Part shown: positions 38,573 through 44,979 of the stretch, one piece after another | How the letters are laid out: the number at the start of each line of letters is the position of its first letter | How positions within the stretch are numbered: the first letter of the stretch is position 1 | From: Bdellovibrio bacteriovorus | GTDB lineage: Bacteria; Bdellovibrionota; Bdellovibrionia; Bdellovibrionales; Bdellovibrionaceae | NCBI RefSeq assembly: GCF_001592755.1 | Contig: NZ_LUKF01000019.1 | Span: forward strand, 248,001 to 312,000 | Direction: 5' to 3' | Length of the DNA stretch: 64,000 nt | The notes under the pieces: model-generated | The model's database searches: none | The model's input: the letters and a program-made list of their open reading frames with translations, nothing else | What the model was told of the DNA's origin: nothing | Made by a program: the position numbers and the translations under genes

Positions 38573-38601
38573 AAAACCAAGCCTTGTGGACTTGGTTTTC
38601 T
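38573..38601 (+). terminator. Terminator after the dioxygenase gene
   Basis: aaaaccaag (38573-38581) pairs with cttggtttt (38591-38599), followed by CTT. Confidence 0.75.
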
Positions 38602-38625
38602 TAATCACATTTATTGAAAAATAAA

Positions 38626-38701
38626 TGGCTCAGAAGGAGGGACTCGAACCCCCGACCCAGCGGTTAACAGCCGCTTGCTCTACCGACTGAGCTACTTCTG
38701 A
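38626..38701 (-). tRNA. tRNA-Asn (GUU anticodon)
   Basis: A 76-base cloverleaf on the minus strand. Acceptor TCAGAAG pairs with CTTCTGA, discriminator G and encoded CCA. Anticodon loop CTGTTAA gives GUU, so it reads Asn codons AAC/AAU. The T-loop TTCGAGT is standard. Confidence 0.97.
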
Positions 38702-38759
38702 ACTCGGTGAAGAACTATAATTAGGGCTTTGGGCGTTTCTTGTCAAACAGAAATCGCGG

Positions 38760-39212
38760 TTACGGAGCCTCCAGCCGCTCCAAAGCCTTGGTCAGCATCG
38801 GCGAACTAAAAGGCATCCCTTGGGCTCTAAAAACCGGTATTTTTTCGTTCTGTTCCAGGGTTTTCGACTCTCCAGATGAAGTTAAAGCCACTAGGCGCTT
38901 TTTATAAGCCGCTTCTTCGATACCTTCGCTAGTGAAACCGCCCAGCATAATTTCGCAAACGCTGCTGATTTCTGAAGAACTTGTAAGAGTCTTTTTTAGC
39001 TCCCCCGACAACGAATAAATCTCAACTTTAGAGGTTTCGGGCGGGCACCAGTTCATCGGGCGATAGTCGCTCCCGATCAACATACCCAAAGCACTTTGTG
39101 GGTCAGAAAGTTTTTGTTTGAACTCGCGGGTTTGCAAAGCGCGGATCGCATAAAGGACAACGCCCAAAGAAACGATCATCATGGCGATTTTAAAATAGAA
39201 AGAAATCTTCAT
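38760..39212 (-). CDS. Membrane-anchored protein of unknown function
   Basis: 150 residues. A single N-terminal helix (about 5-23) anchors a small domain outside the cytoplasm. Two Cys (NWCPPE and SVCEIM) may bond. No family recognised. It lies between the tRNA-Asn and tRNA-Arg genes on the same strand. Confidence 0.7.
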   Translation of the reverse strand: MKISFYFKIAMMIVSLGVVLYAIRALQTREFKQKLSDPQSALGMLIGSDYRPMNWCPPETSKVEIYSLSGELKKTLTSSSEISSVCEIMLGGFTSEGIEEAAYKKRLVALTSSGESKTLEQNEKIPVFRAQGMPFSSPMLTKALERLEAP

Positions 39213-39279
39213 GACGCTACGTTAACTCGGCGAGTTGAAAACGGTCTAGTTATAACGTGAAGTTTAATAAGGAAAAAAA

Positions 39280-39356
39280 TGGTGCACTCGAGAGGATTCG
39301 AACCTCTGACCACATGATTCGTAGTCATGTACTCTATCCAGCTGAGCTACGAGTGC
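39280..39356 (-). tRNA. tRNA-Arg (ACG anticodon)
   Basis: A 77-base cloverleaf. Acceptor GCACTCG pairs with CGAGTGC, discriminator A and encoded CCA. Anticodon loop CTACGAA, ACG (normally deaminated to ICG). D-arm GTAGCTCAGCTGGATAGAG and T-loop TTCGAAT are canonical. Confidence 0.97.
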
Positions 39357-39500
39357 ACTGTGAAAGAGAAGTATAGATAGACTGCGGCCAGGGAAAAATC
39401 AAGCATTCTTGCTAAATTTACAAAAAGAATAAGGCCAAATCCTTGATTAAAGGGGCTCGCTATGGCAGTTTGGTTTCTCAGTCGAATTAAAACCGACCGC

Positions 39501-39593
39501 GGAAAGGTGGGTGAGTGGCTGAAACCAAGCGTTTGCTAAACGCTCGTACACTCAAAAGGTGTACCGCGGGTTCAAATCCCGCCCTTTCCGCCA
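39501..39593 (+). tRNA. tRNA-Ser (GCU anticodon)
   Basis: A 93-base class II tRNA with a long variable arm. GGAAAGG pairs with CCTTTCC, discriminator G, encoded CCA. Anticodon loop TTGCTAA gives GCU (codons AGC/AGU). A T-run follows directly. Its 3' 22 bases are also the antisense end of the kinase-GNAT gene. Confidence 0.97.
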
Positions 39594-40816
39594 TTTTTTA
39601 TCTTTTTCGTAAATCGTACCGCACCAATATAATCGTTTCCTGGCGACTGAATCCAATCGTGTTTTTGATAAAACCGAATAGCTCTTTCGTTGCTTTCGGT
39701 AACATTCAGAGTCGCCATTTCAAGGTTATTATCTATAAAAAACTTTAAGGCTGATCTTTCCAAAATTTCAGCCCCACCCTTGCCACGATGTCCGGGAGAG
39801 AGAAAAATCGAACTTATCATGCCGAGGCCACTATCCTTAATGGTAGCTTCACAGATTCCGACAAGATCGGATCCGAACCTTAAATGGACAAGATGCATTT
39901 TTTTACCCAACCAGTTCTTCAATCTTTCATAATACTTTATCCCCCATGGGCCTACAAACGCTTCAAAATCTGCAGTGGACCGATTGCTCTCTAGAAAAAT
40001 AGCTCTCATGCATTCAAGATAGAACTCGAAGTTAGAATTCAAATCGTAAGGTTCGCTGCTTAATATGGAATCAAGAGAAGAACCAGCGAGAAAATTAATA
40101 GCCTGATTTGCACTTTTAAAACGATAAAGTGCAGAGGGTTCTGTCGCGACTGAAATGAATTTTAAAAGATGAGGATCGTATCTTTTAGATTCAGGTATTT
40201 TCTCAAAGTCCCGACCTGCCATTTGATACTTTTTTAAAAAATCTATTCCAAACAGAAGCTGAAATGCTAGTACGCCTATAGAATAAATATCTAACTGAGG
40301 ACTTATGGTCATATCAGGGGGAGTATGTTGTGACAGACTACTTATTCTGTGAGGAGCAAAAGTTCCCATCCGCACAGATTTTCCAAAATCTGCAAGGAAT
40401 ACATGCAGACCATCCTCTTCATAAACTCGCACATTTTCTAATTTTACGTCGCCGTGAATATAACCAGCATTGTGTATTGAACTTAGAGACTTCAGAAGCG
40501 GAAGTAGAATCTCTGACACTAACTTCGCTTGGGTTATCTTGCCGATATAATCAAAAAGATCCTCTTTGATAAACGGAAATACGAGAAAATTTTGTCCTAA
40601 AATATCTTTCGTGCCTAGTAGGGGCATCACATTTTTAATACCACTAAGGGCCTGGTATGCAGTTGCTTCTCGATTTATGTGCTCATTGGAAATCGGATCC
40701 GGTCGAGATGATTTCAAAAAAAACTTCCCATCAAGATTTTCTGCTATATGACCTATAGATAAGCGGTAAACATTTACCGGCGAAATCTCGGTGAACTCAA
40801 AATTCTTTTTAAGCAT
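39572..40816 (-). CDS. Protein kinase-GNAT acetyltransferase fusion
   Basis: 414 residues from ATG 40816 (GGAG seven bases upstream), eight bases inside the preceding HExxH gene. The N-terminal eukaryotic-type kinase has Lys35 in KFFLKSS, catalytic loop HGDVKLEN (122-129, Asp123), ADFG (142-145) and a DIYSIGVLAFQLLFG helix. The C-terminal GNAT domain (about 265-400) has the CoA loop LSPGHRGKGGAEIL and TESNERAIRFYQKHDW. Both look catalytically complete. It is the last gene of the cassette with the HExxH protein and repeat peptide. The end GGKGGI is encoded by the antisense of tRNA-Ser, suggesting the cassette was inserted next to that tRNA. Likely peptide modification, but substrates are unproven. 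Confidence 0.85.
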   Translation of the reverse strand: MLKKNFEFTEISPVNVYRLSIGHIAENLDGKFFLKSSRPDPISNEHINREATAYQALSGIKNVMPLLGTKDILGQNFLVFPFIKEDLFDYIGKITQAKLVSEILLPLLKSLSSIHNAGYIHGDVKLENVRVYEEDGLHVFLADFGKSVRMGTFAPHRISSLSQHTPPDMTISPQLDIYSIGVLAFQLLFGIDFLKKYQMAGRDFEKIPESKRYDPHLLKFISVATEPSALYRFKSANQAINFLAGSSLDSILSSEPYDLNSNFEFYLECMRAIFLESNRSTADFEAFVGPWGIKYYERLKNWLGKKMHLVHLRFGSDLVGICEATIKDSGLGMISSIFLSPGHRGKGGAEILERSALKFFIDNNLEMATLNVTESNERAIRFYQKHDWIQSPGNDYIGAVRFTKKIKNGGKGGI

Positions 40817-41720
40817 AAACAACTCCGGTAAAGTCGAAGATAAGATCCGAAAGAGAAGCCGTTTTTAGTTTCAAAATCAATGTTCTCGCAGCTTCAGGAG
40901 ACATGGCACATGGAATATCTCGAGAGTTGTTTAAGACATTTTCTTGCGCAAAAGATCGATGCTTAATAAGGGTGTCACTTGATATTAGATCGTAGACTTC
41001 CGCATACTCTTTTTCAGCCAAAAAAACTGAGCGAAATTTATCGGCAAAACTGTTAATTGAGCCGATACTGAGGCAATACTTAATAAAGATATTAGCGTCA
41101 CTCTTCTTGCTCGGAACCCGACAAAGCTCTTCAAAGCAATAGGTCATTCCAGTGCGAATTAAATCGTAAGCCAAAATTAAATCCATTGATATACAAAACC
41201 ATTCAATCAAAATAATTAATTCGTGCATTTCCCTGTCTTCGATTTGAATATTTGAATACGCATCTTTGAAATAAAGGTGCGTATTCTCATGATTAAAAGT
41301 GTAAAAAGGAATTCGAATTTGCCCATCTAAGGATGAATAAAACTTCCTTCCCAATGTAACTGTACTATTCCAAGGGCAAAATTCACCAAAATCATCTTGA
41401 ACAAAATGATACAACGTTTTGCCTGCGGAAGCCTCGTTGTTAATCGCTCTATAGTAAGGGGAGTTGTACATAAGACTCGCGTGCCCCGAGACCCAAAAAT
41501 TTTTCTGAATTAATGTGTTTCGGCTAGCCTCCCGCAAAAAATTTAGAGCATCACATTCCTGCGTTGTCAGGGTATCTGTAGGTCTAAAAAAAGTTTCCAC
41601 CGAAAGATTTTTAATTTTTTCAAGACCGTCTAGCCAAATGGAGGTGCCTATGGGATGCTTTAAAGCATTCTTGGAATCAGACATCAAATTCAGCCAATCA
41701 TTAAAGATTTGAGCGTCCAT
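40809..41720 (-). CDS. HExxH-motif protein, putative peptide-modifying metalloenzyme
   Basis: 303 residues from ATG 41720 (AAGGAAG six bases upstream), 15 bases after the precursor gene stop. A clear HExxH (HENTH, residues 144-148) sits in YTFNHENTHLYF, and acidic residues that could be a third ligand follow (EDREMHE; CFEEL). No signal peptide, so it acts in the cytoplasm. It resembles the HExxH-motif peptide-modification proteins found beside RiPP precursors rather than secreted proteases. The reaction is unknown: hydroxylation and proteolysis are both possible. AT-rich, unlike its flanks. Confidence 0.7.
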   Translation of the reverse strand: MDAQIFNDWLNLMSDSKNALKHPIGTSIWLDGLEKIKNLSVETFFRPTDTLTTQECDALNFLREASRNTLIQKNFWVSGHASLMYNSPYYRAINNEASAGKTLYHFVQDDFGEFCPWNSTVTLGRKFYSSLDGQIRIPFYTFNHENTHLYFKDAYSNIQIEDREMHELIILIEWFCISMDLILAYDLIRTGMTYCFEELCRVPSKKSDANIFIKYCLSIGSINSFADKFRSVFLAEKEYAEVYDLISSDTLIKHRSFAQENVLNNSRDIPCAMSPEAARTLILKLKTASLSDLIFDFTGVVYA

Positions 41721-41735
41721 AGGCACTTCCTTTCC

Positions 41736-42092
41736 TTAAGTATTTCCGTATGGAACAAATCGCGTAGTTAATGCATCTACGAGATTCTTGTGCTCAATAC
41801 TTACTTCATCGTCTGTCTGTCCGTATGGTACGAAACGCGTTGCCGTTTTTTGAGCCTCTTTAGCAAGTGACTGTGCTTGAAAAGGATCTCTGAGCATTGA
41901 ATCAAGTTTTCGAATATTTAATACCGCTTTATTGTCATGGATTCGGACGGCGCCTTGACTAACCAAAATTGAAAGTTCAGACGCAGAAATACTCTGCAAA
42001 CGTCTTTCTGATACAATAACCTCATGCGCTGAGGCCATATGGCCATAAAGATTGGCTGTTAGTAAAAGTGCTAAAATTGTCTTTTTATTCAT
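41736..42092 (-). CDS. Secreted precursor peptide with two TRFVPYG repeats
   Basis: 118 residues from ATG 42092 (AGGAG eight bases upstream). Signal peptide about 1-22 (cleavage after ASA), a charged middle region (23-83), then two near-identical decapeptides ATRFVPYGQT (84-93) and TTRFVPYGNT (109-118, the extreme C-terminus), 25 residues apart. The DNA of the two copies differs at synonymous sites (CGT/CGA, TTC/TTT, GTA/GTT) while the peptide is kept, indicating selection on the protein. First gene of the cassette. Best read as a RiPP-type precursor with two cores. A small secreted protein with a duplicated interaction motif is the alternative. Confidence 0.75.
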   Translation of the reverse strand: MNKKTILALLLTANLYGHMASAHEVIVSERRLQSISASELSILVSQGAVRIHDNKAVLNIRKLDSMLRDPFQAQSLAKEAQKTATRFVPYGQTDDEVSIEHKNLVDALTTRFVPYGNT

Positions 42093-42132
42093 AAAGCTTC
42101 TCCTTGTATAAGCTGTTTGATGCTTGTACGAA

Positions 42133-42145
42133 GCACGGACCGTGC
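42133..42145. promoter_or_regulatory. Perfect palindrome gcacggaccgtgc upstream of the repeat-peptide gene
   Basis: Six-base arms gcacgg and ccgtgc around a single A, 41 bases upstream of the ATG. Candidate operator; the protein that would bind it is not encoded nearby. Confidence 0.4.
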
Positions 42146-42362
42146 CCGTCTTCAAATCAAAGGAAATGGGTTTCTGCGGCAATGTCAGCGATTTTGTCCA
42201 ACTTTAAGTACCCGGCGTCCGAAGATTAGGAATATTAGATTCGGCAGTTCATAAGTCGCTAGCTCAATGGGATAGTGGCCTTTCGTTCGCAGGACTATTG
42301 AATTCAAAGATCGTTAACTAGTTAGATTCCTAAAGAATTTTCAAAATTACCAATCCACTTCA

Positions 42363-42388
42363 TAATAGACGGCATTCAGATTATAAAT
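42363..42388 (+). promoter_or_regulatory. Sigma-70-like promoter giving a nearly leaderless slyX message
   Basis: TATAAA at 42382-42387 lies seven bases before the ATG at 42394, with a weak TTCATA 17 bases upstream. No Shine-Dalgarno sequence is present. Confidence 0.4.
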
Positions 42389-42393
42389 GACTC

Positions 42394-42603
42394 ATGGACG
42401 AAACACGCTTAATCGATATCGAAACAAAATTGGCTCACCAAGAAATGATCGTGGAAGAACTGAACCAGGTTCTTTACCAACAACAAAAGACCATCGACCA
42501 ACTTGAAAAGATGGTTCAGGGATTAACGGCGAAATTGAAAGAGCTGATGACGGATGAAAGCGGCCTTGAGATTCGTGGTCACGAAAAGCCGCCTCACTAC
42601 TAG
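42394..42603 (+). CDS. slyX: SlyX-family protein
   Basis: 69 residues. A single amphipathic coiled coil (LAHQEMIVEELNQVLYQQQK, then IDQLEKMVQGLTAKLKEL) and a C-terminus ending KPPHY match SlyX, a small protein of unknown function in proteobacteria. It has no visible ribosome site, and its promoter abuts the ATG. It converges on queF with a three-base gap. Confidence 0.88.
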   Translation: MDETRLIDIETKLAHQEMIVEELNQVLYQQQKTIDQLEKMVQGLTAKLKELMTDESGLEIRGHEKPPHY

Positions 42604-42606
42604 ATT

Positions 42607-43119
42607 CTAATAAAGCTTTGAAAGCTCCATGGAGTACTTGCCTGGAGCGTATTCGCTCAAGCGCTTCTTATACAAATCTTGGAAGAACTTATCTTTGACG
42701 GCATAACTTGCGTAAGGATAAATGGCGATGCCTCCGCGCGGAGTGAACTCCCCAACGACTTCGATATATTTCGGCTTCATGAGCGCTACAAGATCATCAC
42801 AAATTGTTTGCACACAGTCTTCGTGGAAATCACCGTGATTGCGGAAGCTGAAAAGATAAAGTTTTAACGACTTTGATTCGACCATCTTTTTGTCAGCGAT
42901 ATAGTTAACAAAAATTTTAGCGAAATCAGGTTGGCGAGTCTTCGGACACAAAGAAGTGAACTCGGTACAAACAAATGTTGTCCAAGCAATCTTGCCTGGA
43001 TTCTTATTGTCGAAAGCTTCTAAAATCTCCGGCGCATAGGTCTCGGGATATTGAGTTTGGTTTTCGCCTAATGCGAAGTTAGCTAATTCTTTTGCGTCTC
43101 TGCCGTTTTTCTTTTTCAT
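42607..43119 (-). CDS. queF: NADPH-dependent 7-cyano-7-deazaguanine reductase (QueF, short form)
   Basis: 170 residues, the unimodular YkvM-type length. It reduces preQ0 to preQ1 in queuosine synthesis. Nucleophile Cys58 in [13 protein letters not shown] motif ESKSLKLY (81-88), and NHGDFHEDC with its catalytic Asp and Glu. The gene is alone on its strand; the other queuosine genes are not in the window. Confidence 0.96.
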
Positions 43120-43159
43120 GGGCGCTCTTTTATTTCAATGAGTGATGAATAGCAATGCC

Positions 43160-43645
43160 TTACTTCTTTTTAGGCTTCTTCGAGGAGGATTTTTCAGCCT
43201 TCCGATCGCAGCTTTCCGCTTTTACGAGCTTCATTCCTGAATCCATATCCGGATGAAGAGGATCTGGGACTCTTTCTTTTATATCGTCCCTCATAAAACG
43301 GGCCGTATAAGGTTTGTCTTCTGAAGTAAGCTCTTTGATTTCTTCAGCCGTTTTTGTTGATTCAATTTTTCCACGATAATTTTTTGCAGGCTCGAACAGT
43401 TTCCCTTTAAGCGTGACGGCAGAGTCTTTGTACACACTTGCCACTTCTGCTAGGTCCGGAGCCAACGAAAATACCGTCTCACTCATGGAACCTTCATACA
43501 GCTTGAGGACGGAATTTCCATCCACTTGTTTGATGACGCCTTTGAATTCGTACTCGCCGCATTTGAATTTTTCGTCTGCGTTAGATATGCAAGACGTACT
43601 CAGAATCCACATCATCAACAGACTTTTCCACAGGTGTTTTTTCAT
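43160..43645 (-). CDS. Predicted lipoprotein of unknown function
   Basis: 161 residues. Lipoprotein-like signal ending LSTS-Cys19. Acidic/basic mature chain with a Lys/Ser-rich C-terminal tail (KAEKSSSKKPKKK) and two further Cys (FKCGEY and ESCDRK). No family recognised. Its ATG overlaps the stop of the caspase-like gene (ATGA), so it is the third gene of that operon and may be a partner of the protease. Confidence 0.75.
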   Translation of the reverse strand: MKKHLWKSLLMMWILSTSCISNADEKFKCGEYEFKGVIKQVDGNSVLKLYEGSMSETVFSLAPDLAEVASVYKDSAVTLKGKLFEPAKNYRGKIESTKTAEEIKELTSEDKPYTARFMRDDIKERVPDPLHPDMDSGMKLVKAESCDRKAEKSSSKKPKKK

Positions 43646-44979
43646 AATTTAAAGTCCCTACAGGGATTAGGTTTTTTGTTTTCACTCGAATAAACTTTAT
43701 AAAGTTCGTCGTAAACTTCACGCTCGGCCCTAGCGACGTTCATTGCCTTGTCATGCAATGTCTTGTCATTTCGAAAGTTTGAACGAAGCGACTGCCATGT
43801 TTTGAAAGCGTCGGTATTCACGTACTTTTGATACATAGAAAGTTCTGTTTGTTCTCTTACGGTCAACCCTTTCAGCTTTTTTTTCTCTGTCAGTGCGGTG
43901 ACGCCCGCAATAAATTGCTCTTTCGTTCCACACATTTTCGTATCAGCAACATTGATGCATTCACTCTTATTAAGCTTTTCGGCTTGTTCGTGTGCCTTTA
44001 CTATCTTGTCCCTAGCAGAATTGTAATCGTCTAAAGCTGCTTTCAGTTTATCGATGACAGGCTGATTTTTACTTTTATCAAGACCCATTTGAACGCGCGC
44101 GTACTTATAATAGCTTTGAAAGCCTGCCGCTTTATCAACCTCTTTAAGATCACTGACAAGGCGAAGATACGGAATTGAATTAGTACCGTAGCAAGACATT
44201 TTGCTTAACGGAATTTCTGCAAGTTGATCAGCAGCCATCAGCGAGTTCGTTAAGAACTTTGTGGCGCTAAAGGCTTTTTTGCCAGCGTCCGTAGAAATTT
44301 GCGGAGCCCCTAGCACCAATGCTTTCGGGTCCTTTCTACTAGCCAAGAATGCGCTTTCTAACGAGTTTCCTTTTGTAAGTAACTGACCAAATTTATCTCC
44401 GGATACATTCCAGGCGACTCCTTCGCCACCCATCGAAACGACACATGTTTTGTCAGAGCCTAGCGAAGTCACAGGGCCTGAATGGCAAGACATATCGACG
44501 ATTCCAAGCTGCACACCTTTGGCTTCGGCAAGATCACGAAGCTGTTTAAGTTCATCCATGTTGAATTTGTTGTCGGTCGTGGCAACACTGTGAGTGCGTT
44601 GACCGTCTTTTTGTTTTGCTCCATGCGTGGCGACGGTAATAAGTAATTGATCTCCGGATTTAAGATCCCCGCTTTGAATGCGTTTCTTAAGAGATGCAAC
44701 CTCTGCCTTCATGTTTTCGGCAGTCATCGGTTTATTTGCGCCTTTAAACATATCTTCCGCAAGGGCTTCGGAAATATGATGTCCTCCATCGAAGTACGAG
44801 CGGGCTTTCCAACCGCTGCCTTCTCTGAAAGGCGCAAAGTTTCCATAGGTGGCATCAAAGATCGTCGTTTGGCCGTCGGGCTCGCCGCCACCGCCAAAAA
44901 AGACAATTTCTTTTTTTGCCCAAGCTAAAAATGAAACCGCCGTAACAAAAATTCCCAGGGCGATTTTTTTACTGAACAT
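43642..44979 (-). CDS. Secreted caspase-like (clan CD) cysteine peptidase
   Basis: 445 residues. Signal peptide about 1-21. The clan CD dyad is visible: His119 in LLITVATHGAK and Cys165 in GIVDMSCHSGP, each after a hydrophobic beta strand as in caspase and legumain folds. Helical C-terminal region (about 290-445) with KDKIVKAHEQAEKLNKSE. Function is likely proteolysis outside the cytoplasm. It overlaps the upstream lipoprotein gene by 11 bases and the downstream gene by four, a tight operon. Substrate and maturation are unknown. Confidence 0.82.
   Translation of the reverse strand: MFSKKIALGIFVTAVSFLAWAKKEIVFFGGGGEPDGQTTIFDATYGNFAPFREGSGWKARSYFDGGHHISEALAEDMFKGANKPMTAENMKAEVASLKKRIQSGDLKSGDQLLITVATHGAKQKDGQRTHSVATTDNKFNMDELKQLRDLAEAKGVQLGIVDMSCHSGPVTSLGSDKTCVVSMGGEGVAWNVSGDKFGQLLTKGNSLESAFLASRKDPKALVLGAPQISTDAGKKAFSATKFLTNSLMAADQLAEIPLSKMSCYGTNSIPYLRLVSDLKEVDKAAGFQSYYKYARVQMGLDKSKNQPVIDKLKAALDDYNSARDKIVKAHEQAEKLNKSECINVADTKMCGTKEQFIAGVTALTEKKKLKGLTVREQTELSMYQKYVNTDAFKTWQSLRSNFRNDKTLHDKAMNVARAEREVYDELYKVYSSENKKPNPCRDFKL

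Follow-up and report, generated by a model that had tools for sequence, protein, structure and literature searches.

A putative minimal RiPP-like pathway on a three-gene cassette of Bdellovibrio bacteriovorus that joins a Sec-signal peptide, an HExxH protein and a kinase-GNAT fusion

In a 64,000-nucleotide stretch of Bdellovibrio bacteriovorus DNA (the window, always meant at its full length), three closely packed genes encode a precursor-like peptide with a putative Sec signal, a cytoplasmic HExxH protein and a protein kinase-GNAT fusion, and are moderately well explained as a minimal RiPP-like pathway on a mobile cassette, in which the peptide would be modified in the cytosol before Sec export. 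That the peptide is the substrate is our inference, and so are the individual modifications, the order in which they occur, and the nature and role of the product. If the reading is true, the trio represents a peptide pathway of three genes whose two enzymes, a kinase-acetyltransferase fusion and an HExxH protein that falls outside the known peptide-hydroxylase family, have not been described together. It would also be a second instance, after the bufferins, of one sequence doubling as export signal and as leader for modification. Little has been described of such pathways in Bdellovibrio-type predators, and with only three small genes this one can be rebuilt and tested directly in E. coli.

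The first gene (41736-42092, minus strand) has a ribosome-binding site (AAGGAG) before its ATG and encodes the peptide of 118 aa, followed by the genes for the HExxH protein of 303 aa (40809-41720, minus strand) and the fusion of 414 aa (39572-40816, minus strand). The initial annotation had described three tightly packed genes, and all three open reading frames were recovered on the minus strand, with a gap of 15 bases from the peptide stop codon to the ATG of the HExxH gene and an overlap of 8 bases between the latter and the kinase gene. An ATG at 40816 starts the fusion and makes the longer, TTG-initiated version in the list of open reading frames unnecessary; the final codons of the fusion lie in the antisense of the 3' end of a tRNA-Ser (gct; 39501-39593, plus strand; ARAGORN).

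The same trio in the same order is found in two further genomes of the family, G003 (loci L002/L006) and G042 (L003), with peptide-HExxH gaps of 17 and 26 bases and HExxH-kinase overlaps of 8 and 11 bases, respectively. Identity to the genome of the window (G000) is 51 and 44% for the peptide, 47 and 43% for the HExxH protein, and 48 and 42% for the fusion. A profile search for the HExxH protein in 369 genomes of the phylum yielded only these three genomes above noise (very short matches at L005 and L014 were set aside), and among 66 family genomes the full peptide and the full fusion were each found in the same three only, other matches being weak or, for the fusion, weak or confined to one domain. 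Two of the weak peptide matches (L012 and L013) were rejected, as the common part is only a signal-peptide-like start. No cassette relatives were found in viral contigs, plasmid records or phage records, and a search of genome contigs gave no relatives with the single sequence and just the two loci already known with the alignment. The initial annotation had asked whether the HExxH protein always has such a peptide as its neighbor; for each of the three homologs, the HExxH gene immediately follows that of an RFVPYG peptide and is itself followed by the gene of the kinase-GNAT fusion. At three of three loci, a conserved small precursor gene thus stands beside putative modifying enzymes, as is expected of a RiPP pathway. 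The conservation is that of three homologs, one of which (G042) is from a mislabelled MAG and lies on a contig of 3.1 kb: this contig (L008, CALQIT020000147.1) is titled Streptomyces griseus, the genome is placed in the Bdellovibrio family, and the title looks wrong.

The trio is a mobile or repeatedly lost cassette, as follows from four observations. In the closest relative, G018, a stretch of 2,777 bases (39604-42380) is missing, since its flanks (blastn against L100) match the window at 38601-39603 (96.5%) and 42381-43640 (89.5%) with 76 bases between them. The tRNA-Ser lies at one edge of this stretch, and queF (42607-43119, minus strand; TIGR03139), which is present in 24 of 24 genomes of the genus, marks the other side of a variable interval that holds other genes in other genomes of the genus. 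The AT-richness claimed in the initial annotation is borne out by a GC content of 0.390 in the inserted stretch vs 0.448 in the rest of the window, the third lowest value among 1,225 segments of equal length. Finally, in G003, which belongs to the same genus, the trio occupies another place in the genome, with queF on a separate contig. We rejected insertion by an element that targets tRNAs and has a repeated attachment site, because the tRNA 3' end occurs only once in the window. Beyond queF, a 445-aa protein with a signal-like start is encoded at 43642-44979 (minus strand) and has a sub-threshold match to a caspase domain (Peptidase_C14, E 0.006).

The peptide consists of a putative Sec signal peptide (residues 1-22; MNKKTILALLLTANLYGHMASA), a middle part of 62 residues, the nonapeptide TRFVPYGQT (85-93), a linker, and TRFVPYGNT (110-118), which forms the C-terminus. 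The claim of two C-terminal TRFVPYG copies applies to the window peptide, where they begin at residues 85 and 110, but copy 1 is degenerate in one homolog. A repeat of seven residues arose in 4 of 200,000 shuffles of the peptide, and at the DNA level the two copies show synonymous differences only. The first repeat reads STQFIPYGHT in G003 and is degraded to SPKSIPGYT in G042, so that only the second unit, at the C-terminus, is constant: RFVPYG(N/C)T is kept in all three homologs, with R, F, V, P, Y, G and the last T constant and N, N and C before that T. Among the three homologs, identity amounts to 15-17 of 22 residues in the signal, 24-26 of 62 in the middle, 2-4 of 16 in the linker and 7-8 of 9 in the last nonapeptide, and conserved ends with a variable link between them are the pattern of a leader/core precursor. 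By inspection, all three signals have an n-region with NKK, a hydrophobic stretch and an AxA/SxA site. Signal peptides normally keep general properties only, and conservation as high as here is unusual. It is, however, what would be predicted if the signal also served for enzyme recognition, as in the bufferins, where a Sec signal is present on a RiPP precursor and preliminary evidence places the signal within the recognition sequence (PMC12452194).

For the HExxH protein, no match was returned by Pfam, NCBIfam (none at E <= 1), PHROGs or PADLOC. The HENTH motif reported in the initial annotation was located at residues 144-148, and in the three homologs HEN(T/A)H is invariant at H144, E145 and H148, as are E173, 25 residues further on, and D180. 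The proposed link to the NCBI family 'HEXXH motif-containing putative peptide modification protein' (TIGR04267, aKG-HExxH), in contrast, found no support at the sequence level. In 23 of 23 TIGR04267-type proteins from the order, a His follows the HExxH motif by 31-45 residues, with RP just before it in nearly all, and both this third His and the RP motif are absent from the present family, which instead has the invariant E173 and D180, the placement of their helix being ambiguous. We therefore do not assign the protein to TIGR04267. When profiles were compared, the match to the TIGR04267 set was limited to 33 columns around HExxH (prob 3.7, E 0.012), and the profile of the HExxH family (A1) found no meaningful match in the PDB, where the profile of the TIGR04267 set (A4) finds ChlH at once. 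No TIGR04267 copy was detected in G000 or G003. An equation of E173 with the third His of TIGR04267, drawn by eye (EWFCISMDL / HSIIVSMEL), was rejected, since an ungapped scan over all positions does not pick that alignment, and E173 is only a candidate metal ligand.

One of five AlphaFold2 models of the HExxH protein was usable (pLDDT 71, pTM 0.73) and predicts mixed strands, the HExxH helix (139-155) and a long helix (162-189) that would carry E173 and D180. A Foldseek search with this model returned nothing at E <= 0.001. With VIA-align, the HExxH domain of ChlH (8S5F) ranked first of 808 chains (Z 4.9, rmsd 4.6, 153 residues, 12% identity), although a Z below 8 may reflect a common arrangement; with a poorer model of the G003 homolog (pLDDT 57), 8S5F had rank 16 and Z 3.3. 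The likeness to ChlH is suggestive only, and the protein could be either a distant aKG-HExxH relative with a changed metal site or a peptidase. As a variant within the RiPP-like reading, which it overlaps, a plain zincin metallopeptidase could trim the precursor in the cytosol and leave the kinase-GNAT as sole modifier. We regard this as rather unlikely: the zincins ArdC (6SNA, Z 3.2) and Zmp1 (5A0S, Z 2.8) appear in the same fold list, the protein lacks the third His and the RP motif that mark the aKG-HExxH set, and PflC is itself able to hydrolyze peptide bonds (PMC12636437), yet ChlH ranked higher than either zincin, and export would fail if a peptidase cut off the Sec signal in the cytosol.

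A role in peptide signalling was also considered, in which the exported propeptide is cut to a C-terminal nonapeptide pheromone, the HExxH protein acts as maturation or degrading peptidase, and the kinase-GNAT transduces the signal. This role would suit a secreted propeptide whose C-terminal unit is short, conserved and, in two of the genomes, present twice, and the invariant Glu 25 residues past HExxH in the next helix, as found in gluzincin peptidases, would agree with it as well. However, by inspection the HExxH protein and the kinase have neither signal peptides nor transmembrane segments and would thus not meet an exported peptide, and the window has no receptor, importer or target regulator next to the trio, so that signalling appears improbable.

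The third protein is, as stated in the initial annotation, a kinase fused to a GNAT, with Pfam matches to Pkinase (PF00069, E 1.7e-13; about residues 35-195) and Acetyltransf_1 (PF00583, E 8.8e-13; about 285-391) in the same protein. Catalytic residues had been described as kept in both domains, which is true of the kinase in three of three homologs (K35, D123, K125, N128 and D143-F-G, covering the HxDxKxxN loop and DFG), whereas the acetyl-CoA motif of the GNAT (RxxGxG/A) fits G000 and G042 but not G003, which suggests that acetylation may not be essential in all genomes. The kinase domain has a weak match to the LanKC/LanL models and also matches several defence kinase models. GNAT-mediated self-immunity is known for other peptide toxins, and the trio lies in a variable interval beside a tRNA, which together with the defence kinase matches could indicate toxin-immunity or defence, with the peptide being toxic or sensed and the kinase-GNAT protecting the producer or arresting the infected cell. 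These matches cover just the kinase domain common to most Ser/Thr kinases, while the peptide and the HExxH protein match none of the defence models, and a Sec signal is ill-suited to an intracellular sensor; we judge such a function to be very improbable.

For the favored RiPP-like pathway, the Sec signal would direct export and, together with the region just behind it, also be the leader that the enzymes recognize, and the core would be formed by one or more RFVPYG-x-T units at the C-terminus. The HExxH protein is predicted to be metal-dependent, most likely an oxygenase distantly like ChlH/PflC, and would hydroxylate or cleave at a core residue, candidates being Phe, Pro and the variable position that precedes the final Thr. 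Among the residues that aKG-HExxH enzymes are known to target are His, Asp, Phe, Gln and Pro (PMC13060819). Of these, Phe and Pro occur in every C-terminal core, and some copies carry Gln or His at the variable position. The kinase-GNAT would phosphorylate Thr or Tyr and acetylate an amine or hydroxyl. As the kinase needs ATP, the GNAT needs acetyl-CoA and the enzymes have no signal peptide, any action of theirs on the peptide must take place in the cytosol and precede Sec export. Signal peptidase would then cut off residues 1-22, and an unlinked protease may free the core. That the peptide and the fusion adjoin the HExxH protein in all three known homologs sustains the RiPP-like reading of the initial annotation, but not its tie to a named NCBI family. 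Points against the pathway are that the HExxH protein has no sequence tie to any peptide-modifying family, that its fold match to ChlH is in the range of common arrangements, that the homologs number only three, that the second core is not conserved and that the exporter seen in G003 was not found in G000 or G042. It is conceivable, if somewhat doubtful, that the trio of this predatory bacterium defines a new RiPP class, in which a Sec signal is the enzyme-recognition leader, and the RFVPYG-x-T core is processed by a new HExxH family with a different metal site (perhaps with Glu as third ligand) and decorated by one kinase-acetyltransferase fusion.

Among known systems, the aKG-HExxH peptide beta-hydroxylases (TIGR04267/IPR026337; ChlH 8S5F, PflC/PosC, BpmH, PesO) likewise pair a small precursor with an adjacent HExxH protein of roughly 300 aa, the ChlH domain is the best fold match, and the pfl cluster also has a GNAT; in contrast, the HExxH protein described here has no sequence match to them and does not have the third His and RP, and neither the kinase fusion nor the Sec signal was found described for their clusters. 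In the pfl/pos clusters of Pseudomonas, precursor, GNAT and HEXXH enzyme occur in one cluster, with the GNAT and the HEXXH enzyme of pfl beside the precursor, but these clusters have a nitrile hydratase-type leader, an MNIO-nitroreductase fusion and transporters, whereas here a kinase is fused to the GNAT (PMC12636437). The bufferins and oxazolins (MNIO RiPPs) resemble the trio in their precursor, whose Sec signal (putative in the trio) probably takes part in recognition too, but the trio has no MNIO (DUF692) or DUF2063 gene (Pfam), the window peptide contains no Cys and its core no Cys motif. Kinase-bearing RiPP enzymes (LanKC/LanL; lasso peptide kinases) also have a Ser/Thr kinase domain in a peptide pathway; the fusion differs in having a GNAT instead of a cyclase or lyase domain.

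In G003, an ABC transporter gene of the same orientation lies 1.1 kb upstream of the trio, separated from it by the gene of a single HTH protein. The exporter family occurs in 15 of 66 family genomes, with two copies in the 3.2 Mb of G003, and its closeness to the trio is unlikely to be due to chance (about one in a thousand by our own estimate). The exporter was not found in G000 or G042, and hence Sec alone must serve there if the RiPP-like reading holds. Exporter relatives in other Bdellovibrionaceae adjoin genes of the TIGR04267, YhhC-like 2OG oxygenase and tetrapyrrole-methylase types, together with peptides of 35-53 aa. At two loci (L049:4383-7892, L058:592-2932), a TIGR04267 HExxH protein precedes the same ABC family, with a candidate precursor ORF of 40-42 aa in front; L049 also encodes, in between, a 367-aa protein without family match. 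Seven clusters (L055:6658-8797, L061:6271-8408, L051:444-2554, L053:6534-8669, L050:7219-9308, L063:6465-8558, L060:6946-9072) combine a peptide of 35-49 aa that has a shared IPxE(I/V)xxLL-like motif with a 2OG-Fe(II) oxygenase of 180-209 aa and an exporter with a short ATPase domain; the L055 oxygenase matches the cyclophane-peptide oxygenase YhhC at E 4e-10, below the cut-off of that model. We know of no published description of such peptide/2OG oxygenase/ABC exporter clusters in the Bdellovibrionaceae. At three further loci (L056:8956-10746, L054:1923-4889, L062:5111-9958), the same ABC family lies beside tetrapyrrole-methylase-type enzymes, a fold used by borosin methyltransferases, and short peptides with a similar (I/V/L)P motif, and L054 additionally encodes a radical SAM protein.
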